Positions 54,035 through 64,000 of a DNA stretch of 64,000 nt are shown piece after piece (the stretch's first letter is position 1; each line of letters starts with the position of its first letter). Origin of the DNA: Nonomuraea africana (GTDB lineage Bacteria > Actinomycetota > Actinomycetes > Streptosporangiales > Streptosporangiaceae). Made by a program: the position numbers and the translations under genes. The notes under the pieces are model-generated. The model was not told the DNA's origin and searched no databases. It saw only the letters and a program-made list of their open reading frames with translations. The stretch is taken from positions 8,432,001 through 8,496,000 of the forward strand of contig NZ_JADBEF010000001.1 in NCBI RefSeq assembly GCF_014873535.1, given 5' to 3'.

Positions 54035-55264
54035 TTACCTGACTCCCTTGACGGGCAGTACGGCGACCGCCCCGATGAGTGAGATGACGATGGCCACGAG
54101 CCACAGCGCGCTGTATCCGCCCAGCCCGATGATGCCCGAGGCGATGAACGGGGCGACCATCTGTGGCCCCGCGTTCGCGATGCTGAGGATGCCCATGTCG
54201 CGGGCGGCGTCGTCCTTGCTGGGCAGGACGAGGGTGACGATGGCGATGTCCACGGCGCCGTAGGCGCCGAAGGCGGCGCCGTGGATGGCGCTGTAGATCA
54301 GCATCGAGGTCCAGCTCGGCCACAGCAGCGGCAGCACCATCGACAGCGCGGTGACGACGCCCGCGACGGTGACGAAGAGCTTGCGCCGGTCGAGCCGGTC
54401 CGACAGCGGCCCGCACACCACGGTCGCCAGCACGGCGCAGATCGTGGAGACGAGCGTCGCGGTGGCCACCGCCTGCGGCGCCTCGTCCTTCGGGATGCCG
54501 ATGTGGTCCTGGAAGATGAAGAGCATGAACATCAGGACCATGAAGTAGCCGAGCACCATCAGGCTGCGCCCGATGAAGACCCACAGGAAGTCGCGGTGCC
54601 CCAGCGCGGAGAGGAAGTCGGCGATCGACCGCTTGGGCCGCACCGTCACCTCGTACTCGCCGGGGCGCGGGTCGTGGGTGAGCGAGACGACCAGGAGGGC
54701 ACCGAGCACGACCGCCGAGCCGTACACCAGGTAGCCGAGAGAGACGTTGCCGACGAAGAAGACCGCGATCTGGGTGCCGAAGACGATGCCGACGGAGGTG
54801 GCGACGCCCAGGACGGCCGAGGCGGTGCCCCTGCGCTGCTCCGGCACGCGGTCGGGGATGATCGCGGTGAGCGCGGCCTGGTAGAGGTTCATCATGGCCT
54901 GGGCCAGCGACCAGCCGAGCAGGATCATCGGGATGGTCGAGACCTGGCTCATCAGCAGCATCGTGGCCAGCGCGGCGATCGCGCCGCCGAGGATCCACGG
55001 GTTGCGCCTGCCCCAGCGCGAGCGGGTGGTCCGGTCGGAGAGCATGCCCCCGATCGGGTTGAAGACCGTCGCGAAGACGGCGCTGACGCCCGCGACCAGG
55101 CCCACGTTGGCGACCTTGTCGGCCGGGTCGATCTCGGCGATCTGGGTCTGCACCAGCAGGCCGCCGACGCCCAGGTAGAGGGCGTACATGACGGCGTTGC
55201 TCGCGCCGAGGACGGTGAGCAGCTTCGGCAGGCCGTCCCGCCGGACGCCAGTGGTGGGGACCAT
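54035..55264 (-). CDS. MFS transporter, sugar/cation symporter-like
   Basis: A 409-residue permease with about twelve predicted transmembrane segments. The loop 2-3 signature is GGMLSDRTTRSRWGRRNPWI and the matching second-half loop is GPLSDRLDRRKLF. This form is common in glycoside/sugar transporters of the MFS. Divergent from a LacI-type regulator, which supports a carbohydrate substrate. ATG at 55264 with AGGAGT upstream. First gene of an operon with the hydrolase and GNAT genes. Confidence 0.85.
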   Translation of the reverse strand: MVPTTGVRRDGLPKLLTVLGASNAVMYALYLGVGGLLVQTQIAEIDPADKVANVGLVAGVSAVFATVFNPIGGMLSDRTTRSRWGRRNPWILGGAIAALATMLLMSQVSTIPMILLGWSLAQAMMNLYQAALTAIIPDRVPEQRRGTASAVLGVATSVGIVFGTQIAVFFVGNVSLGYLVYGSAVVLGALLVVSLTHDPRPGEYEVTVRPKRSIADFLSALGHRDFLWVFIGRSLMVLGYFMVLMFMLFIFQDHIGIPKDEAPQAVATATLVSTICAVLATVVCGPLSDRLDRRKLFVTVAGVVTALSMVLPLLWPSWTSMLIYSAIHGAAFGAYGAVDIAIVTLVLPSKDDAARDMGILSIANAGPQMVAPFIASGIIGLGGYSALWLVAIVISLIGAVAVLPVKGVR

Positions 55265-55287
55265 GGCGACTCCTGACTTGAGGGGGG

Positions 55288-55305
55288 TGCTTATACGTAT
55301 AAGCA
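55288..55305. promoter_or_regulatory. LacI-type operator, perfect 18-bp palindrome
   Basis: TGCTTATACGTATAAGCA, fully symmetrical with central CG, placed between the divergent MFS operon (start 55264) and the LacI-type gene. Probable binding site of that regulator, controlling both directions. Confidence 0.85.
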
Positions 55306-55355
55306 GTGGATAGCATCAAGGGACCGAAGCTGACAAGAGGAATGTTCTGGATGTG

Positions 55356-56333
55356 ATGAGCGGCAACAGGCCCGCCACGAGCATGGACGTCGCCAGAGCG
55401 GCCGGCGTCTCCCAGGCCACCGTCTCCTACGTGCTCAACGACCGGCCGGGCAGCCGGATCAGCGAGGAGACCAGAGCCCGCGTCCGCGACGCGGCCGAGC
55501 GGCTCGGCTACGTGCCGCACGCGGGCGCGCGCACGCTGCGCACCGGCAGCAGCGGCGTGGTGCTGCTCGCCGTGCCCGACATACCGCAGGGACCGCTGGC
55601 GACCGGCCTGCTCGAGGAGCTCGACAGGGAGCTGGGCGGGCGCGGCTACACCATGGTCCAGTACGGCGCCCGCCGCACGAAGGGCGTCGCGGCCGCCAAG
55701 GCGTGGGCCGAGCTCAGGCCCGCCGCCGTGGTGGCCGACACCAGCAGGCTGACCAGGGCGGGCATCGAGGTGCTCAGGGCTGCGGGGGTCAGGGCGATCA
55801 TCGGGATGGGACTCGCGCCGGTGGCGGGCGTCCCCTCGCTGCGCACCGACCACGAGGGGGTGGGCGCGCTGGCCGTACGGCACCTGCTGGAACGGGGCCG
55901 CGAGCGGATCGTGGCGGTGGTCCCCCGAGAGGAGGGGCTCAGGGAGATGGGCCTGGCCAGGCTGCGCGGCGCGCGGTCGGCCGGCGTGCCGGTCACGGCC
56001 GTCGACCTGGCCTTCGACGAGGGTGCGGCGGCCGCGTTCGCGGCGAGCCTCGCGGGCGGCGAGGGCGTGTTCGCCTACAACGACGAGTACGCGATGCTGC
56101 TGCTCGCGGCCTTCCACGACGCGGGGATGGAGGTGCCCGGCGACGTGGCGGTGATCGGCTGCGACGACCTGCCGATCTCACGGCTGACCCGGCCGAGACT
56201 GAGCACGGTGCGGCCGGACCTGTCGGCGGCGCCGGCCAGGACGGCCACGCTGATCGACCGGCTCGTTCGCGGGATGCCCTGCGACGACGTCGACCTCTGG
56301 ACTCTCCAGCTCATCCGCAGGGGCTCCACCTGA
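55356..56333 (+). CDS. LacI family transcriptional regulator
   Basis: A 325-residue repressor. N-terminal HTH SMDVARAAGVSQATVSYVLNDRPGSRISEETRARV, hinge AGARTLRTGSSG, and a sugar-binding-protein-like effector domain ending in IPLWTLQLIRRG-like sequence (here DLWTLQLIRRG). Divergent from the MFS operon with a perfect palindromic operator between. ATG at 55356; the GTG immediately before it is an alternative. Confidence 0.9.
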   Translation: MSGNRPATSMDVARAAGVSQATVSYVLNDRPGSRISEETRARVRDAAERLGYVPHAGARTLRTGSSGVVLLAVPDIPQGPLATGLLEELDRELGGRGYTMVQYGARRTKGVAAAKAWAELRPAAVVADTSRLTRAGIEVLRAAGVRAIIGMGLAPVAGVPSLRTDHEGVGALAVRHLLERGRERIVAVVPREEGLREMGLARLRGARSAGVPVTAVDLAFDEGAAAAFAASLAGGEGVFAYNDEYAMLLLAAFHDAGMEVPGDVAVIGCDDLPISRLTRPRLSTVRPDLSAAPARTATLIDRLVRGMPCDDVDLWTLQLIRRGST

Positions 56334-56378
56334 CCGGCCGCCGCCTGGTCGCGAGGCCCAGCATGCACATCTGCATGA

Positions 56379-56726
56379 CTAGACGTTGCTCAGTATTCCC
56401 ATTGCCGCCGACCATACGACCCCCGCGACCAGGAACCCCAGCGCTTGACGCGTGAGCAGCTTGCGGAGGGGCCCGGTCAAGGAGAACGAGCAGCAGTGAA
56501 AGGCGAAGAGCGTGGCGGCGGCGGGAACCAGGACGACCGTCCCGCCCAGGAACCCGACCTTCCACGCCGAAGGACAGGTCGCGCCCCCGCAGACGCCGGA
56601 CCACCCGATCTCGATGAGGCCGAAGAACCCGAGCGCCGCCATGCCCAGCGCACCGGCGCAGGCCACCACGATCAGCCTCGTGCGTTGCCCTGAGATCATC
56701 GACGGCGGGGCGGGGCGATCCGTCAC
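56379..56726 (-). CDS. small membrane protein with three or four helices
   Basis: A 115-residue protein with hydrophobic segments at about residues 17-38, 54-78 and 90-112 of the GTG-start product, and cysteines in the loops (GVCGGATCPSAW, HCCSF). GTG at 56726 chosen because AAGGAGAG stands just upstream; an earlier ATG would place that ribosome site inside the gene. Function unknown. Confidence 0.65.
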   Translation of the reverse strand: MTDRPAPPSMISGQRTRLIVVACAGALGMAALGFFGLIEIGWSGVCGGATCPSAWKVGFLGGTVVLVPAAATLFAFHCCSFSLTGPLRKLLTRQALGFLVAGVVWSAAMGILSNV

Positions 56727-56789
56727 ACGACTCTCCTTGGCCGAGACGACGAGGAAGGAGGAGTATTTCATTCCGGGCGGCGGGCCGCG

Positions 56790-57512
56790 CTAGCGGTCGA
56801 CGGCGGTGGCGCCGCCGTCCACCACCAGATGGGTGCCGGTGACGAAGGAGGCCTCGTCGCTCATCAGGAACCGCACCGCGGCCGCCACCTCCTCCGGCCT
56901 GCCGAGCCTGTTGGCCAGCGCCCTGCCCTTGAAGACCTCGACGAGCTCCCCCGCCGCCCTGGCCAGCAGAGGGGTGTCGATGTAGCCGGGACAGACCGCG
57001 TTCACCCTGATGGGGGCGAGCTCGTGCGCCATCGATCTGGTGAGGCCGAGCAGGCCCGCCTTCGAGGCGCAGTAGGCGGGGATGAACGCCTGGCCCACCA
57101 GGCCCTCGATCGACGAGATCCCGACGATCGCGGCGCCCTCGACCTCGCGCAGGTGGGGGAGGAGCGCCCTGGTCAGCAGGGCCTGGGCGCGCAGGTTGAC
57201 GTCGAGGACGAAGTCCCACGCCTGCTCGGTGAGGTCGGAGACGGCCATGGGATGGGCGACGCCCGCCGCGTGGACGAGCCCGCCGATCGGGCCGAGCGCG
57301 TCGCGGGTGGCCGCGATCGCCGGCTCGAAGGCGGCGGAGTCGGTGACGTCGACCCGTAACCCGATGGCTGTGGCGGCCGTCTCCATGGCCACCTTCTTGG
57401 CCGCGGGGCCGTCGAGATCCCAGATCGCCACGGGCCGCCCGGCCGCCGCCAGCGCGATGGCGCACGCCCTGCCGATGCCCGAGGCGCCGCCGGTAACGAT
57501 TACCGCGCTCAT
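56790..57512 (-). CDS. SDR family NAD(P)-dependent oxidoreductase
   Basis: A 240-residue classical short-chain dehydrogenase. Cofactor motif TGGASGIGRA at the N-terminus, catalytic Ser in ISSIEG, Tyr and Lys in PAYCASKAG, and the C-terminal VTGTHLVVDGGA. Substrate unknown. ATG at 57512 with GGAAAGGA upstream. Divergent from the second SDR gene. Confidence 0.88.
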   Translation of the reverse strand: MSAVIVTGGASGIGRACAIALAAAGRPVAIWDLDGPAAKKVAMETAATAIGLRVDVTDSAAFEPAIAATRDALGPIGGLVHAAGVAHPMAVSDLTEQAWDFVLDVNLRAQALLTRALLPHLREVEGAAIVGISSIEGLVGQAFIPAYCASKAGLLGLTRSMAHELAPIRVNAVCPGYIDTPLLARAAGELVEVFKGRALANRLGRPEEVAAAVRFLMSDEASFVTGTHLVVDGGATAVDR

Positions 57513-57578
57513 TCGTGTCCTTTCCACGCGACGCGGATCACGCTAACGTCAGATTCAAGCGAGCGCTAGGGAGGGACG

Positions 57579-58418
57579 GTGCGGGAGCTCTCCGGCAAGG
57601 TCGCGGTGGTGACGGGCGCCTCGAGCGGGATCGGCAGGGCGCTGGCGGTACGGCTCGCGGCGGAGGGCATGTCGCTGATGCTCGCCGACGTCGATCCGCG
57701 CGGCCTGTCCCAGACGGCCGCGATGATCTCGGGGGTCACGGTGCTCACGCAGATCACCGACGTCTCCGACGCGCCCGCCGTCCAGCATCTGGCGAACCGG
57801 GCCTTCGGCGAGCTCGGCGCGGTGCACGTGCTCTGCAACAACGCGGGCGTCTTCCAGGGCGGCCGGATCTGGACCCGCACCGAGGAGGACGTCGCCTGGC
57901 TGCTCGGCGTCAACGTCTGGGGCGTGCTGCACGGCATCCGCGAGTTCGTGCCGCGGATGATCGAGCAGGACACCGAGGGGCACATCGTCAACACCGTCTC
58001 CGTCGCGGGGCTGTTCGCGGGCGCCAACACGGGCGGGCAGGCGGTCTCCAAGTACGCCGCCCTCGCCGCCTCGCAGTCCCTCGCCCTCGATCTCGCGCAG
58101 ATCGGCTCCAAGCTGCGCGTGAGCGCGCTGTGCCCGGGAGGGGTGCGCACCGGCATCAACCGCTCCGAGCGCGTACGGCCCGCCGACCTGATCGTGGCCC
58201 GCACCCGCGACGACCTCACCTCCCAGGAGTGGCTCGACGGGATGCTGGAGAAGGGCATGGAGCCCGCCGAGGTCGCCGACGCGGCCGTCGACGCCATCAG
58301 GCAGGAGCGCTTCCTCGTCCTCACCCATCCGGGCTACGAGGAGCGCCTGCGGGAGCAGACGGCCGCGCTGCTGGCGGGCCTGTTGCCGGAGCCGCCGGAC
58401 GGCGAACCCCGCCCCTAG
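57579..58418 (+). CDS. SDR family protein with the catalytic tyrosine replaced
   Basis: A 279-residue SDR-fold protein. The cofactor motif is VTGASSGIGRAL and the NNAG motif is present. The serine is S141 (NTVSVAG) and the lysine K158, but the position that should be tyrosine (13 after the serine, 4 before the lysine) is Gln154: GGQAVSKYA. Normal oxidoreductase chemistry is therefore doubtful. It may be a non-catalytic relative or use another residue. GTG start preceded by GGGAGGGA. It lies 52 bases before the guaA promoter region. Confidence 0.85.
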   Translation: MRELSGKVAVVTGASSGIGRALAVRLAAEGMSLMLADVDPRGLSQTAAMISGVTVLTQITDVSDAPAVQHLANRAFGELGAVHVLCNNAGVFQGGRIWTRTEEDVAWLLGVNVWGVLHGIREFVPRMIEQDTEGHIVNTVSVAGLFAGANTGGQAVSKYAALAASQSLALDLAQIGSKLRVSALCPGGVRTGINRSERVRPADLIVARTRDDLTSQEWLDGMLEKGMEPAEVADAAVDAIRQERFLVLTHPGYEERLREQTAALLAGLLPEPPDGEPRP

Positions 58419-58469
58419 CGGGCCGGATACACTGGGAGCACCGCATTCACCTGCTTGGGGGTTCTCTCG

Positions 58470-60020
58470 GTGTCTGAATTCGACACAGTGCTCGTGGTCG
58501 ACTTCGGTGCGCAATACGCACAGCTCATCGCCAGGCGAGTGCGCGAGTGCCACGTCTACTCCGAGATCGTCCCCTCGACGATGCCGGTCGAGGAGATGCT
58601 GGCCAAGAAGCCGAAGGCGATCATCCTGTCCGGCGGCCCTTCCTCGGTCTACGCCGAGGGCGCTCCCGCCGTGCCGCATGGCCTGTTCGAGACCGGGGTG
58701 CCGACCTTCGGCATCTGCTACGGCTTCCAGGCCATGGCCCAGACTCTCGGCGGGGAGGTGGCCCGCACCGGCGTCGCCGAGTACGGCGGCACCGAGCTGC
58801 GCGTCGGTATGGAGGGCGTGCTGTTCTCCGGGCTGCCCGCCAAGCAGACCGTCTGGATGTCCCACGGCGACAGCGTCGCCGCGGCGCCCGAGGGCTTCGC
58901 CGTCACCGCCGCCACCGACGAGACGCCCGTCGCCGCCTTCGAACACCCCGGCAAGGGCCTGTACGGCGTGCAGTTCCACCCCGAGGTGCTCCACTCCGAG
59001 CACGGCCAGGCCGTGCTGAAGCACTTCCTCGACGCGGCGGGCTGCCGCCCCTCGTGGACGATGCTCAACATCGTCGAGGACGCCGTCGCCGCCGTCCAGC
59101 AGCAGATCGGCCCCGAGGGCCGCGCGATCTGCGCGCTGTCGGGAGGCGTCGACTCCGCCGTCGCGGCCGCGATCGTCCAGCGTGCCATCGGCGACCGGCT
59201 GACCTGTGTCTTCGTCGACCACGGCCTGCTGCGCAAGGGCGAGGCCGAGCAGGTCGAGCGCGACTTCGTCGCCGTCACCGGCGTCAAGCTCCGTGTGGTC
59301 GACGCCGCCGACCGCTTCCTCAAGGCGCTCGACGGGGTCACCGACCCCGAGGAGAAGCGCAAGATCATCGGCCGTGAGTTCATCCGCGTCTTCGAGGACG
59401 AGCAGCGCGCCATCATGTCTGAGGGCCCCGTCGACTTCCTGGTCCAGGGCACCCTCTACCCCGACGTCGTCGAGTCGGGCGGCGGCACCGGCACCGCGAA
59501 CATCAAGTCGCACCACAACGTCGGCGGCCTGCCCGAAGACCTGCAGTTCTCGCTGGTCGAGCCACTGCGCACGCTGTTCAAGGACGAGGTGCGCAGGGCG
59601 GGCGAGGAGCTCGGCCTGCCGTCCGCGATGGTGTGGCGCCAGCCGTTCCCCGGTCCTGGGCTCGGCATCCGCATCATCGGCTCGGTCACCCAGGACCGCC
59701 TCGACATCCTGCGCGAGGCCGACGCGATCGCCCGCGAGGAGCTGTCCAGGGCGGGGCTCGACCGCGAGATCTGGCAGTGCCCGGTGGTGCTGCTGGCCGA
59801 CGTCCGCTCGGTCGGCGTCCAGGGCGACGGCCGCACGTACGGTCACCCGGTGGTGCTGCGCCCGGTGACCTCGGAGGACGCGATGACGGCGGACTGGGCG
59901 CGCGTGCCCTACGACGTGCTGTCGCGCATCTCGACGCGCATCACCAACGAGGTGCGAGAGGTCAACAGGGTGGTGGTCGACGTGACCAGCAAGCCGCCCG
60001 GCACGATCGAGTGGGAGTAG
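58470..60020 (+). CDS. guaA: GMP synthase (glutamine-hydrolysing)
   Basis: A 516-residue enzyme that converts XMP to GMP using glutamine and ATP. The glutaminase domain has its nucleophile C83 in GICYGFQ and the His/Glu in VQFHPEV. The ATP-pyrophosphatase domain has the P-loop [13 protein letters not shown], and the C-terminal dimerisation domain ends [20 protein letters not shown] start at 58470, giving [15 protein letters not shown]. Completes the guanine branch begun by guaB about 24 kb upstream. Confidence 0.97.
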
Positions 60021-60032
60021 CCATCACTTAGC

Positions 60033-60068
60033 GGGGAGTCACGGAATAATCGCATTCCGTGACTCCCC
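60033..60068. terminator. terminator after guaA
   Basis: GGGGAGTCACGGAAT / ATTCCGTGACTCCCC, a perfect 15-bp stem with a 6-base loop, followed by CTTT. It starts 12 bases after the guaA stop. The GTG that could start the next reading frame (60059) lies inside its right arm. Confidence 0.9.
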
Positions 60069-60587
60069 CTTTGCGTTTCGGCTACATCGACGAGTCGATC
60101 CACGACAGACACGGCCTCTATCTCATCGCCGTGGTGCGCGCGCACCCCTCATTGGAGGGCGAGGCGCGCGACCTGCTGACCGCCTGCATACCCACCGGTC
60201 AGCGACCACATTGGGGCAAGGAGAGTGGCTCGGTGCGCGACGCCCTCGTGCGGGCCGTCGCGTCCCTTGAGGTCGATGCGCCAGGAGGCCGCGCGGGCTC
60301 GGGCGCTGGGCTGGGCGGCGCTCGAGCTTGCCCCGGGTGTCGGTCACCTGGTCATCGACCGGCGTGAGGATCGGCAGAACCGGACCGACAGGAAGGTGCT
60401 ATCGGCGTTCGCGGGACGCCCTCAGCGCTTCACCTTCGCGCACGCGTCGTCCAGTGCGATGCCTCTGCTGTGGGTGGCTGACATCGTGGTGGGTGCCGCC
60501 GCAGCGCAACTCGCGAGAGGGGAGGAGCGTTATCTCAAGGCGCTGGACGGGCTGGTGGAGCTCTCGTCCGAGCTGACCGCGTCTTGA
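60059..60587 (+). pseudogene. DUF3800-like gene, broken by deletion and frameshift
   Basis: The first frame reads LRFGYIDESIHDRHGLYLIA, with the D-ES start and hydrophobic strand typical of DUF3800 (RNase H-like fold) proteins, then RPHWGKESGSVRDALVRAVASLE. The frame then shifts. From about 60284 the neighbouring frame gives RQEAARARALGWAALELA, HLVIDRREDRQNRTDRKVL and the family C-terminus AMPLLWVADIVVGAAAAQLARG before the TGA at 60585. The join at about 60270-60285 seems to lack some residues as well as the frame. Start unclear: GTG at 60059 or TTG at 60071. Confidence 0.65.
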
Positions 60588-60588
60588 C

Positions 60589-60699
60589 AGCGCAAAGGCC
60601 GGGCGCCCGTCATGCGGCGGAAAACCCGGCCTCACTTCGCAGCCCTAGTGGGCTGCGCATAACCGAGTGTAATCGACCGACTGCGGCAGTCAAGCGGAA
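60589..60699. ncRNA. structured element, copy 1 (DUF3800-associated RNA motif candidate)
   Basis: Begins AGCGCAAAGGCCGGGCGCCCG. Two stems: GGCCGGG (60597-60603) with CCCGGCC (60625-60631), and CGCAGCCC/GGGCTGCG closing a TAGT loop (60638-60657). A further self-complementary GACTGC-G-GCAGTC lies near the end. Repeated almost exactly in the next 112 bases. Structured RNAs named after DUF3800 have been described next to such genes; this looks like a member, but strand and boundaries are uncertain. Confidence 0.6.
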
Positions 60700-60812
60700 A
60701 GCGCAAAGGCCGGGCGCCCGCCATCCGGCGGAAAAACCCGGCCCCACTTCGCAGCCCTAGTGGGCTGCGCATTACTTATAGTAGCCAATCGACTGCGGGG
60801 GTCAAGCCCTTT
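60700..60812. ncRNA. structured element, copy 2
   Basis: Second tandem copy with period 111-112 bases. GGCCGGG (60708-60714) pairs with CCCGGCC (60737-60743), and the TAGT hairpin is at 60750-60769. The first 75 bases differ from copy 1 in only a few positions, whereas the tail after the second hairpin is more diverged. Conservation concentrated in the stems supports a structured RNA. Confidence 0.6.
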
Positions 60813-60836
60813 GCGGGACTGACGCTCACCGACTGG

Positions 60837-62015
60837 TCACGACGACACAGTGCTCGTGTCGCGCGGTCGAGGGAGCTCTACGACGCCACCCACTGACCTG
60901 GCGGCCAGCCGCCTGCCGTACCGCTGGGCGGGCAGTTCCACGAAGCGGTGGGTGAGCCGGCTCGCGCCGAGGATGAGCGCCAGCAGCGCGAGGCCGAGGC
61001 CGAGCTGGGCGGGCCACGGCAGCAGCCTGGTGTCGCCGAAGATCAGCAGCGCCAGCTTGAGCAGCGGTACGTGCACGAGGTAGACCGAGTAGCTGATCAG
61101 GCCGAGCCAGGCCAGCACCCGCGGCAGGGCCCGCTCGCGCAGCGCGAAGAACACCGCGAAGGTGGCCGCGGCCAGGCCCATCGTGGCCAGGTTGGTGAGG
61201 CCGTTGAAGGTCACCGGCTTGAGGAACGGCACCAGCACGATCAGCGCCGCCACCCCCGCCACCGGCCACAGGCCCGAGCTCTGGCCGTGCTGCCAGCGGT
61301 GGATCGCGGTGCCGGTGAACATCACCGACAGGATCATCGCGCCCTGCCAGGTCTCCCTGCTGCCGATCCAGATGAGCCCGACGGCCAGGACGGCCAGCGT
61401 CACCCCGCCCGCCAGCCGCAGGGAGCGAGAGCCGTACAGCACGCCGCTGAGGCCCGCCGCGACCACGGCCAGCACCACGAGCGGCGCCCACGGGCCGTCG
61501 AGCAGGTGGCCCTCGCGCGGCATCGTGAAGGCCACCAGTGTGGCCAGCGCCGCGAACGCCAGCGCGAACAGCCCGCTGCGCCGGTGCACCCCGGCCACGA
61601 ACAGGCCCGTGACCAGCAGGTAGAAGACCATCTCGTAGGAGAGCGTCCACATCGGCTCGACCAGGCCCGCCGAGCCCGTGACCTCCATGAGCATCGTGAG
61701 GTGGGCGAAGACGTCGGCGTCGCCGCGCAGCGGCAGCAGGGGCGCCAGCGCCAGCGTGATCACGATGACCAGCAGGTAGAGCGGGTAGAGGCGGAACACC
61801 CTGCTGATCCAGAACGCCTTGATCTCGCCCCTGCGCTCCAGCGAGGCGGGGATGATGTAGCCGCTGACGAGGAAGAACACCAGCACTCCGTAGATGCCGA
61901 GGTTCATCCAGCGCGGCCGCAGCCAGTCGAGGAAGTGGTAGTTGAGGTGCTCGACGAGGACGGCTGTCGCGCCCACGCCACGCAGGGCGTCGAGCCACGC
62001 CAGCCGTCGGGTCAT
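60837..62015 (-). CDS. acyltransferase 3 family membrane protein
   Basis: A 392-residue integral membrane acyltransferase (OafA/NodX type) with about ten transmembrane segments. It starts RRLAWLDALRGVGATAVLVEHLNY, with the family motif LDxLRGxxA and the catalytic histidine in the first helix, then LGIYGVLVFFLVSGYII and the arginine motif ISRVFRLYPLY. Such enzymes O-acylate sugars or cell-surface polymers. ATG at 62015. The next gene upstream ends 10 bases away on the same strand. Confidence 0.9.
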   Translation of the reverse strand: MTRRLAWLDALRGVGATAVLVEHLNYHFLDWLRPRWMNLGIYGVLVFFLVSGYIIPASLERRGEIKAFWISRVFRLYPLYLLVIVITLALAPLLPLRGDADVFAHLTMLMEVTGSAGLVEPMWTLSYEMVFYLLVTGLFVAGVHRRSGLFALAFAALATLVAFTMPREGHLLDGPWAPLVVLAVVAAGLSGVLYGSRSLRLAGGVTLAVLAVGLIWIGSRETWQGAMILSVMFTGTAIHRWQHGQSSGLWPVAGVAALIVLVPFLKPVTFNGLTNLATMGLAAATFAVFFALRERALPRVLAWLGLISYSVYLVHVPLLKLALLIFGDTRLLPWPAQLGLGLALLALILGASRLTHRFVELPAQRYGRRLAARSVGGVVELPRPRDTSTVSS

Positions 62016-62025
62016 TCCGCGAAGT

Positions 62026-63405
62026 TTACCCGCGCCCCGCGCGCCAGAAGCGGACGAGCAGAGGGAGCATGAGGAAACCGATGAAGATCGGCGAGGCCAT
62101 GTAGCGGAAGTCCTGGGCGGAGATGTTGGCGAGCACCGCCGCCTGCTGGCCGAGCATCGCCGCCGCGATCGCGAACACCCACCGGTTGCCCCGCAGCCAC
62201 GCCGCCACCCCCAGCGCCAGGTAGGAGGCGTAGCACCAGATCGGTCCGCGCCAGACCAGCCAGTCGAGGTCGGGCTCGTAGGAGGCCCACAGCCATTCGT
62301 TGGCGAGGTCGTTGAGCGGCTGCGACAGCGGGCGCAGGTTGAAGCTCTCGTACTCGGGATGGCGCTCGATCGCGTACGGGCCGACGTACTCCCACGTGAA
62401 CCACCGGTGGGAGAAATGGTAGGTCTCGCCGCCCTCCGACCAGCGGTCGGCTCCAGGGCGCCAGGCGATGGCGCCCCTGCACAGCCGAGTCTTGATCACC
62501 TGGTCCGGCGCCTCGATCAGAAGCCGCTGCCAGAGCGCCATCACCTGCGGGCTCAACTCGTCGGCCCGCCGCCAGTCGAAGTCCTCCCGCCAGATCAGCG
62601 GGTTGATCGTGTTGCAGTTGGCGCCCCGCCACCACCGGTCCAGCGGCGCGATCTCGGCCATCAGCGCCACGTCCTGCGTGGTGAACAGGTCCGTGCGCTC
62701 CTTCCACGCCACCGCGATGTCGCCGTAGGCGGTGTGGTAGACGAACGTGCGCGACGGCGGCACGATCCCGACCTGCGGGAGGATCAGGTTGGTCAGCAGC
62801 ACGGGCACGCCCGCCGCGACCAGGCCCGTCACGGCCAGCCGCGCCCTCGCGCCCTTCCCGATGATCACCAGCACGATCACGGTGATCGCCACCACCAGGA
62901 ACCCGTTGGCCCTGAACAGGCCCGCGCCCAGCATGACCGCGCCGAGCCCGATCAGCGTCCCCCTGGTCGGGCCCCTGTTCTTGGCGATGCGTGCGATCAC
63001 CGCGGTGATGCCGATGACGCACGCGGTGAACGGCACGTCCTTCCAGAACGTCACCGCGAACGCCCCGAACGGCGGAGCGAAAGGGAGCAGGACAGCGGCG
63101 ATCGTCGTCGGCACCCGCGGCGCGCCGAGCCGCTTGAGCTCCTGGGCGAGTAAGGCGACGGCCGCGGCCATGGCCGTCGTCTGCAGGAACGTCACGGGGC
63201 TGACCTCGCCCGTGGCCTTCACGCTCAGCCACAGCAGCGCGTCGTAGAGGACCGAGTGATCGCTGACCCATGGCCCTTCGAGGGTGTGGGTCAGATAGAG
63301 CGCGGAGTCACGGCTGAACAGTCCAGGATAGAAGGCGGCCCACCACAACAGGAGCACGACCTGGATGAAGAGGAATGTCCGCGCTGTGGACCGTTCGACC
63401 GTCAC
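62026..63405 (-). CDS. polytopic membrane protein, GT-C-like, unknown function
   Basis: A 459-residue protein with about ten hydrophobic segments. The first loop has an acidic, aromatic stretch (YPGLFSRDSALYLTHTL) in a position like the catalytic aspartates of GT-C glycosyltransferases. A large external loop at about residues 220-370 is rich in Trp and Arg. The family is not certain (DUF6020-like). Position beside an acyltransferase and an FAD oxidoreductase of the sugar-modifying type suggests surface-polysaccharide work. Confidence 0.65.
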   Translation of the reverse strand: MTVERSTARTFLFIQVVLLLWWAAFYPGLFSRDSALYLTHTLEGPWVSDHSVLYDALLWLSVKATGEVSPVTFLQTTAMAAAVALLAQELKRLGAPRVPTTIAAVLLPFAPPFGAFAVTFWKDVPFTACVIGITAVIARIAKNRGPTRGTLIGLGAVMLGAGLFRANGFLVVAITVIVLVIIGKGARARLAVTGLVAAGVPVLLTNLILPQVGIVPPSRTFVYHTAYGDIAVAWKERTDLFTTQDVALMAEIAPLDRWWRGANCNTINPLIWREDFDWRRADELSPQVMALWQRLLIEAPDQVIKTRLCRGAIAWRPGADRWSEGGETYHFSHRWFTWEYVGPYAIERHPEYESFNLRPLSQPLNDLANEWLWASYEPDLDWLVWRGPIWCYASYLALGVAAWLRGNRWVFAIAAAMLGQQAAVLANISAQDFRYMASPIFIGFLMLPLLVRFWRAGRG

Positions 63406-63511
63406 ACGGGCTATATTTCAGGTGCGCGTGGATCAGTGCAAAACGGTCTTCTCACCGGTAGGCCCAGGGACCGAAATCCTGTGGACAGCGCTGCCTAGAG
63501 GCCGGTGCGCG

Positions 63512-64000
63512 TCATGAACGGCGAGCGCCTGGGCCGGCGAACACGGGTGCCGAGCGTCCCGTTCCACGGCCGTCCGATCCCTCTTCGTGGTACTCCGCCT
63601 CGACGTTGACCGACCAGATGTCGTGCTGGGCGTCGTGGACGATGTTCTCGACCGTCAGCATCGCCGTCAGCATGGAGTGATCCTGGTTGTTGTACCGATG
63701 CATACCGTTGCGGCCGACTGGGTGAATCTCCGGCCACTCGACCTCGAGGTACTTCCGCAGCGTCTCAACGCTGCCGGCGTAGTCGGCGTCGTAGACGGGA
63801 TAGGCCTTGGGCATCCGGACAACGTATCCCTGCTGAACCGCACCCGGGTGGACCAGCCCGAGCCGCTCCAGCTCCTCGGTGCCGAACCGTACGAGTTCGT
63901 GGTCAGCGCTCTCCCACAGGTCGTCGCCCTCGTTGACGAAGTACTCCAGCCCAAGACAGGTCCGGCCGGCCTGAACCAGGTGCGGCGACCAGGAGCCGTA
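63512..64000 (-). CDS. FAD-dependent oxidoreductase, UDP-galactopyranose mutase-like (partial)
   Basis: The last 162 residues of a flavoprotein whose N-terminus lies beyond the window edge. It contains RMPKAYPVYDADY and the very characteristic HPVGRNGMHRYNNQDHSML, which in this family binds the flavin near the C-terminus (compare the amine-oxidase-like flavoproteins found in polysaccharide loci). The last 35 residues are a charged tail. The reaction cannot be fixed without the N-terminal half. Confidence 0.78.
   Translation of the reverse strand, partial: YGSWSPHLVQAGRTCLGLEYFVNEGDDLWESADHELVRFGTEELERLGLVHPGAVQQGYVVRMPKAYPVYDADYAGSVETLRKYLEVEWPEIHPVGRNGMHRYNNQDHSMLTAMLTVENIVHDAQHDIWSVNVEAEYHEEGSDGRGTGRSAPVFAGPGARRS

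Follow-up and report, generated by a model that had tools for sequence, protein, structure and literature searches.

A small structured RNA family convergent with DUF3800-like genes in Actinomycetota, and its possible antitoxin-like role

The stretch of DNA analysed here (64,000 nucleotides of the Nonomuraea africana genome, from now on the window) contains a DUF3800-like gene that is broken, followed by two structured units; guaA lies on one side of them and an acyltransferase gene, convergent, on the other. This arrangement raises the question of what the units are and how they are related to the gene beside them. An earlier note, made from the letters alone, had regarded the gene as the decayed partner of a structured RNA and had proposed a type III-like RNA antitoxin. 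The features are collected in Table 1, in which the 5' ends of both units are placed provisionally, from the promoter position.

Table 1. Features of the module and of its surroundings in the window (predicted features are named as such or as "-like")
Feature	Position	Strand	Basis or remark
guaA	58455-60020		Left neighbour of the module
Terminator-like hairpin behind guaA, left edge of the module	60033-60068	+	15-pair hairpin; a similar one in G619, which has no module
DUF3800-like gene of a nuclease with predicted RNase HII fold, broken, two frames	60065-60587	+	tblastn of the G179 frame; stop codon 60585-60587
9-base direct repeat CCCTTTGCG, left copy	60067-60075		Seen in the sequence
RNA unit 1: 5' hairpin (60656-60639), conserved GAAGUGA linker, main stem, tail; core 60640-60586	60586-60660	-	R2 match, fold
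Promoter-like site of RNA unit 1 (TTGACT, 16, TACACT)	60666-60693	-	Promoter scan; same position in the family
RNA unit 2: anatomy as in unit 1; model core 60752-60697	60697-60772	-	R2 match
Promoter-like site of RNA unit 2 (TTGACC, 16, TACTAT)	60778-60805	-	Promoter scan
9-base direct repeat CCCTTTGCG, right copy	60807-60815		Seen in the sequence
Acyltransferase gene, convergent	60837-62015	-	PF01757 match

At the corresponding guaA site, genome G179 carries an open DUF3800 frame of 189 codons and one RNA unit. By tblastn this open frame is recovered in the window as two segments that lie in different frames, 60065-60280 and 60141-60563, so that a single gene broken by a frame change is indicated, as the earlier note had supposed. 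Neither half of the gene was called in a Pfam scan of both halves at E 1; the second half reaches E 7e-24 with an iterated family HMM. At E 1e-8 no other match than the broken gene is listed for the N. africana genome, and it covers model positions 80-179. The window is one of the cases in which the RNA stands beside a broken DUF3800 gene, as the earlier note had held.

The two units are direct repeats (60586-60695 and 60697-60807) with a spacing of 111-112 bases and two ungapped blocks that are 84% and 90% identical. Both fold better than shuffled sequences (z -3.35 for one unit and -2.81 for the other), and the tandem structured elements of this period that the earlier note had described are thereby confirmed. 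A promoter scan of positions 59900-61000 gave two sigma-70-like sites, both on the minus strand (0.0 in shuffles). Besides, in an alignment of 97 units the stem contains a U-G pair in 91/91 units at one position and a G-U pair in 14/90 at another. These pairs fix the strand, because the opposite strand would carry A-C mismatches, and together with the two minus-strand sites they assign the units to the minus strand. On the basis of these signals each unit is a predicted RNA gene with its own promoter-like site, aimed at the 3' end of the DUF3800 gene, and the RNA would have a length of about 75 bases.

The same anatomy is found in the rest of the family. A promoter score of at least 8/12 is present upstream in 44% of 157 units (more than half thus lying below this score), compared with 3% for the reverse complement, 8% for shuffles and 3% for random windows, and the -35 peak, 54 bases ahead of the core, accounts for 26 of the 69 units scoring at least 8/12. 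The promoter scan of the RNA of phage Satis gave no site. A 5' hairpin of at least five pairs ending just ahead of the core occurs in 89% of the units and in 37% of shuffles. A protein-coding core, starting at the GTG inside GAAGTGAG, was considered and rejected: the core is longer by one base in unit 2 and by two in L016 and L010, so there is no conserved reading frame.

Two covariance models were used, R1 (built from 20 units) and R2 (built from 97 units, with the window left out). Over the whole window R2 finds both units, with E values of 3.6e-19 and 6e-19, and the next match has merely 15.5 bits. The 97 aligned units (91 distinct), whose alignment was fitted to a structure drawn by hand, contain 205 double-change cells against 54.6 in shuffled alignments, and their covariation score is 0.443 against 0.167; 0/500 shuffles reach either measure, and the score is 0.07 at most when the partners are slid by 1-3 columns. 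In the initial alignment (20 units, not fitted to a structure) the double-change cells and the score are also above all 500 shuffles, whereas the number of pairs with a double change and the pair types are not (56/500 and 236/500 shuffles reach them, respectively). The earlier note had held that a lack of covariation would speak against its reading; on the 97 aligned units the stem covaries strongly.

By DNA search the unit is found in 18 of 250 genomes of the family, including that of N. africana, and R1 at E 0.01 or below gives matches in 97/250 family genomes and 78/394 class genomes (weak matches included; the two samples overlap). R1 matches at 26-35 bits were treated as chance, since 1/17 of them is convergent within 40 bases of DUF3800. 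A core DNA pattern retrieved at least 120 stretches with 129 elements, mostly single units, from named genomes; the stretches listed include Lentzea, Sphaerisporangium, Nonomuraea, Mycobacterium, Blastococcus, Jiangella and Frankia. Among these core-pattern stretches, one comes from a record titled Acidobacteriota. With the covariance models, a small structured RNA family is found across Actinomycetota. It seems not to have been described previously, and no report of it was found in those parts of the literature on DUF3800-linked RNAs that the search returned.

Related to this, the earlier note had connected the units with the DUF3800 motif families of Rfam, and the covariance search did not bear this out. 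An Rfam scan of window positions 55000-64000 at E 1 gave no match whatever, scans of units of the family gave no family at its cut-off and no DUF3800 motif family among the matches, and searches with RF02969 and RF02968 were negative in 148 genomes (0/148), as well as in the control genomes. The DUF3800-I to -XI RNA motifs, reportedly described by Weinberg et al. in 2017, are like this RNA in being structured RNAs of unknown role beside DUF3800 genes; in contrast to them, this RNA has no match to any of their covariance models.

The RNA is linked to DUF3800 genes. Among 69 full-length open DUF3800 relatives in the 250 family genomes, 58 have the RNA beside them by R1, and at the remaining 11 loci a diverged RNA is detected at the same place by R2 with E of 9e-7 or below (one of these loci, L370, belongs to R2's own alignment). 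The intact homologues with RNA that the earlier note had asked for therefore exist in other genomes, and 69/69 of them have it. All the protein-RNA neighbour pairs counted (94/94, broken proteins included) are convergent, with the RNA at the 3' side of the gene. When the search starts from the RNA, 72 of 150 listed RNAs lie near a full-length DUF3800 gene, 23 near a broken one only and 55 near none (within 1.5 kb); the resulting count of 78/150 RNAs that have no full-length gene nearby is an upper bound, because the list reaches down to about 33 bits, contig ends intervene and 13 protein candidates were scored per genome. Genome G064, for example, was called DUF3800-less, yet it has a weak DUF3800-like frame at L123. 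Of 157 units with at least 35 bits, 95 are convergent to a DUF3800-like frame that is no more than 40 bases away. For 29 units the frame is present but differently placed; most of these are additional copies at a greater distance, and two have the orientation of the frame, at 942 and 5355 bases from it. The other 33 have no such frame in the stretch. In the named genomes 107 of the 129 listed elements have DUF3800 within 2.5 kb, never with the nearest one in the same orientation, and 22 have none, two of these lying near a contig end. The distances between RNAs and between proteins are correlated in 74 modules (r 0.65, whereas none of 999 permutations exceeds 0.16), a result that shared descent alone would give. 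The dependence is thus one-sided: a full-length nuclease was never found without the RNA, and the RNA is often found without a full-length nuclease.

Strong G+C hairpins at gene ends could be cis elements and nothing else, that is, terminators or insulators between convergent genes. We give this explanation hardly any credit, as the units have promoter-like sites and strand-specific U-G pairs, occur as solo copies inside phage genomes and keep one orientation in 94/94 pairs.

The edges of the module bring in another possibility. G619, the nearest relative (guaA 97% identical over 371 bases), has no module: homology to the window stops near 60082 and restarts at 60821, so that about 60083 to 60820 is missing. 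An empty site was looked for there; the module is absent, but other sequence occupies its place. The 9-base repeat CCCTTTGCG flanking the module may be a duplication produced at insertion, or chance. It is also similar to the RNA tail when this is inverted. Hairpins acting at the DNA level, for which attC and REP hairpins are the comparison, could move DUF3800 and toxin cassettes, and they would account for this repeat, for L172 and L176, in which two or three DUF3800 genes stand in tandem, each with its own convergent RNA, and for the toxin-type genes beside some solo RNAs. A DNA-level element of this kind is very improbable in our opinion, because promoter-like sites and U-G pairs indicate transcription and the N. 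africana genome has two strong copies only. A dispersed repeat, or an element unrelated to DUF3800 as the earlier note had allowed, was rejected too, given that the 9.69 Mb genome has no strong copies besides the two units and that the linkage to DUF3800 is clear.

As regards the protein, residues D10, E11, H54, R94, D125 and D159 are invariant in 39 aligned DUF3800 relatives. An intact relative of about 190 residues was modelled with AlphaFold2 (pLDDT 96.2), and RNase HII/H2 chains lead both lists of the structure comparison, with a best E of 1.5e-5 in one and Z of 12.9 in the other (superposition rmsd 2.7 for 154 residues and 2.9 for 153). RNase HII uses a D, E, D, D set, and the intact protein is predicted to have the RNase HII fold with the four acidic residues D10, E11, D125 and D159. 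It shares with RNase HII/H2 this predicted fold and the D, E, D, D residues, and it differs from them in its low identity (9-20% in the second of these lists), its patchy presence in genomes and its tie to an RNA gene. An RNase H fold has been reported for the DUF3800 domain, according to passages of two papers (PMC10910872; PMC12669027). Seven intact relatives straddle the cut-off of PF12686 (21 bits): three are above it (28.9, 21.5 and 21.2), two below (19.2 and 17.9) and two have no match. PADLOC, run on three of the nucleases, assigned no family.

Nucleases of the IscB/TnpB type need their RNAs, and the RNA could in the same way be an activating cofactor or a guide that DUF3800 needs to cut its target; the gene would then never be found alone because the protein is useless without RNA. 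Agreeing with this, the RNA accompanies all 69 full-length proteins found, the predicted catalytic fold is of RNase H type, and the FLSHclust authors suggest that a TPR-DUF3800 protein of Cas12a2 loci takes part in interference or has a crRNA-related function (PMC10910872). The TPR-DUF3800 proteins of Cas12a2 / VI-F loci, as far as that passage describes them, share the DUF3800 domain and the RNase H fold with the nuclease of the window, which, unlike them, is single-domain and has its own small RNA, with no CRISPR link seen in the window. However, the RNA often occurs where the protein does not, phages among others having it by itself, and visual inspection of the units listed showed no guide-like segment that varies at a constant position. 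A cofactor or guide is therefore considered unlikely.

The tail-to-tail layout also recalls type I antitoxins. The convergent RNA could act as an antisense to the 3' region of the mRNA for the nuclease, the stop codon being mostly 40 bases away or less. PtaRNA1 (RF01811) is a type I antitoxin RNA of proteobacterial plasmids, and it is the nearest Rfam family: it matches L035 2358-2432 on the RNA's own strand with 30.7 bits, which is less than its gathering cut-off (47 bits), the E value being 0.039 over 61 kb and 1.3e-4 over 201 bases. PtaRNA1 and the L035 unit have the same order of elements (5' hairpin, GGAAGU linker, G+C stem, GCGCU tail), and at L504, a PtaRNA1 locus of a Marinobacter plasmid, the 3' end of the PtaRNA1 match region is likewise directed at the stop codon of a gene, a small one, that converges with it. 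A kinship of the two families is thus possible, judging from these shared elements. But the match is absent from the window and from 28 further loci (L337 apart, 16.5 bits), and in L504 a toxin gene of 76 codons has its start within the RNA, with no DUF3800 annotated, whereas the RNA described here starts past the stop codon. Furthermore, type I toxins are small hydrophobic peptides, in contrast to this protein of about 190 residues with a predicted nuclease fold. The pairing of the stem is kept by double changes and GGAAGUG is widely conserved, which points to recognition by a protein. An antisense role is on these grounds distinctly unlikely, and the PtaRNA1 match raises its probability very slightly.

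Three viral pattern scans and a model filter yielded 17 contigs with strong RNA (at least 45 bits), among which the near-identical L333/L334, L336/L339 and L492/L494 were merged and L421, with its short flank, was omitted; R2 matches of 23 bits or less (L438, L462, L468, L483, L489 and L491) were dropped, as was L493, which has no listed match. DUF3800 is lacking on the stretch in 11/13 strong-RNA viral contigs, compared with 22/129 listed genome elements (p 1.4e-6, the search patterns being different). Among 19 whole viral records chosen for the RNA, near-duplicates included, two have a DUF3800 protein (E limit 0.001). The complete Streptomyces phages Satis, Quantum and Kradal, which are close relatives, have the RNA and no DUF3800 match, and so do the complete Gordonia phages Faith5x5 (53 bits), Tardus and APunk (30.5 bits each), which are further to the 19 records. 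Mycobacterium phage Gaia has both RNA and DUF3800; L335 was counted as this phage, since it encodes an identical protein. Contigs L332, L337 and L492/L494 have a pair of RNAs of different subtypes at a distance of 76-86 bases, although in L492 the second one reaches no more than 20.5 bits, and the spacing suggests that such tandem subtypes may share a single promoter. Blast searches with some RNA subtypes gave none in phages in two cases, and in one phage and one plasmid search only matches of 33-35 bases, while the remaining phage searches gave the hits used here; the 21-base matches of Jeeves were set aside and the EhyElimayoE match was left out. In the Gordonia phage stretches L500 and L503 (2522-2576 in both) the RNA occupies a short gap before the tail assembly chaperone gene and shares its strand with the neighbouring genes. 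The two plasmid copies examined (M. lentiflavum and Clavibacter) have kept both DUF3800 and the convergent RNA. These plasmid modules (L501 2504-3132 and L502 2489-3116) stand directly behind a gene annotated as 'recombinase family protein', and a gene of the same annotation is also close to the PtaRNA1 locus of the Marinobacter plasmid (L504 1-850).

The RNA behaves like an antitoxin, because it is present with every full-length nuclease found, persists where the nuclease has been disrupted or lost, and is alone in phages. The explanation that we favour, to which we would give an even chance, is that the RNA is an antitoxin-like inhibitor of the RNase-HII-fold nuclease and that the phage copies are decoys. 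According to this model, a DUF3800-like nuclease of about 190 residues and an RNA of about 75 bases, transcribed from its own promoter, would form a two-part module arranged tail to tail. The RNA would bind the nuclease and keep it inactive, the nuclease would be a toxin or an abortive-infection effector, and the solo copies of phages would serve as decoys; in N. africana the nuclease would have decayed, leaving two RNA copies.

In type III toxin-antitoxin systems the antitoxin is a repeat-array RNA upstream of the toxin gene and co-transcribed with it. ToxIN, of type III, is like the module in combining a nuclease with a small structured RNA and in having phage-borne RNA copies. On the other hand, here 94/94 pairs are convergent, the RNA has its own promoter-like sites and units are mostly single; and the predicted fold, with RNase HII/H2 chains leading the fold lists, is that of RNase HII, where type III toxins have the ToxN/AbiQ type. 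The type III-like proposal of the earlier note is therefore kept in part: an antitoxin-like relation is the best-supported one after comparison, but a co-transcribed array is contradicted by the convergent layout and the separate promoter-like sites. Blower et al. have reported that a pseudo-ToxI RNA of phage PhiTE suppresses ToxIN (PMC3475682), and the phage RNA copies described here would be a parallel to it. A broader claim is advanced more tentatively, with rather less than an even chance: a protein-RNA conflict system of Actinomycetota that has not been described before, in which an abortive-infection nuclease of RNase HII fold would have a convergent RNA inhibitor, and phages would have decoys as solo copies or two-subtype tandems.

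No established role for DUF3800-linked RNAs was found in the retrieved portions of the literature searched. The role is now directly testable thanks to the strand, the promoter-like sites, the class-wide covariance model, the one-sided dependence and the phage copies, and named isolated phages and laboratory hosts are available for this purpose. If the inhibitor model is true, the RNase H fold joins the RNA-controlled toxins, and actinobacteriophages would have a counter-defence by RNA mimicry.

Finally, the genes in the company of the RNA were considered. In L111 the module stands between type IIG methyltransferase-like and DruE-like helicase genes, and likewise in L113 (PADLOC). The arrangement of L112, L116 and L117 is similar by eye. 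The place of DUF3800 is taken in L116 by a PIN protein, whose gene is preceded by a small one, and in L117 by an NYN protein, 195 bases off; the RNA is kept in both. Nine neighbours of solo RNAs, picked by eye, were scanned in Pfam: five match PIN (two), PemK, ParE or NYN, and the other four gave no toxin match. The PemK, ParE and NYN genes are 98-195 bases from the solo RNA, and most solo RNAs adjoin non-toxin genes. RNA copies are seen near a tRNA gene in L020 and L021 (by eye) and in L027 (by Rfam), the last with an integrase-like frame adjacent and no DUF3800 found. In L373 the RNA/DUF3800 pair adjoins, by eye, a CRISPR-like repeat array.
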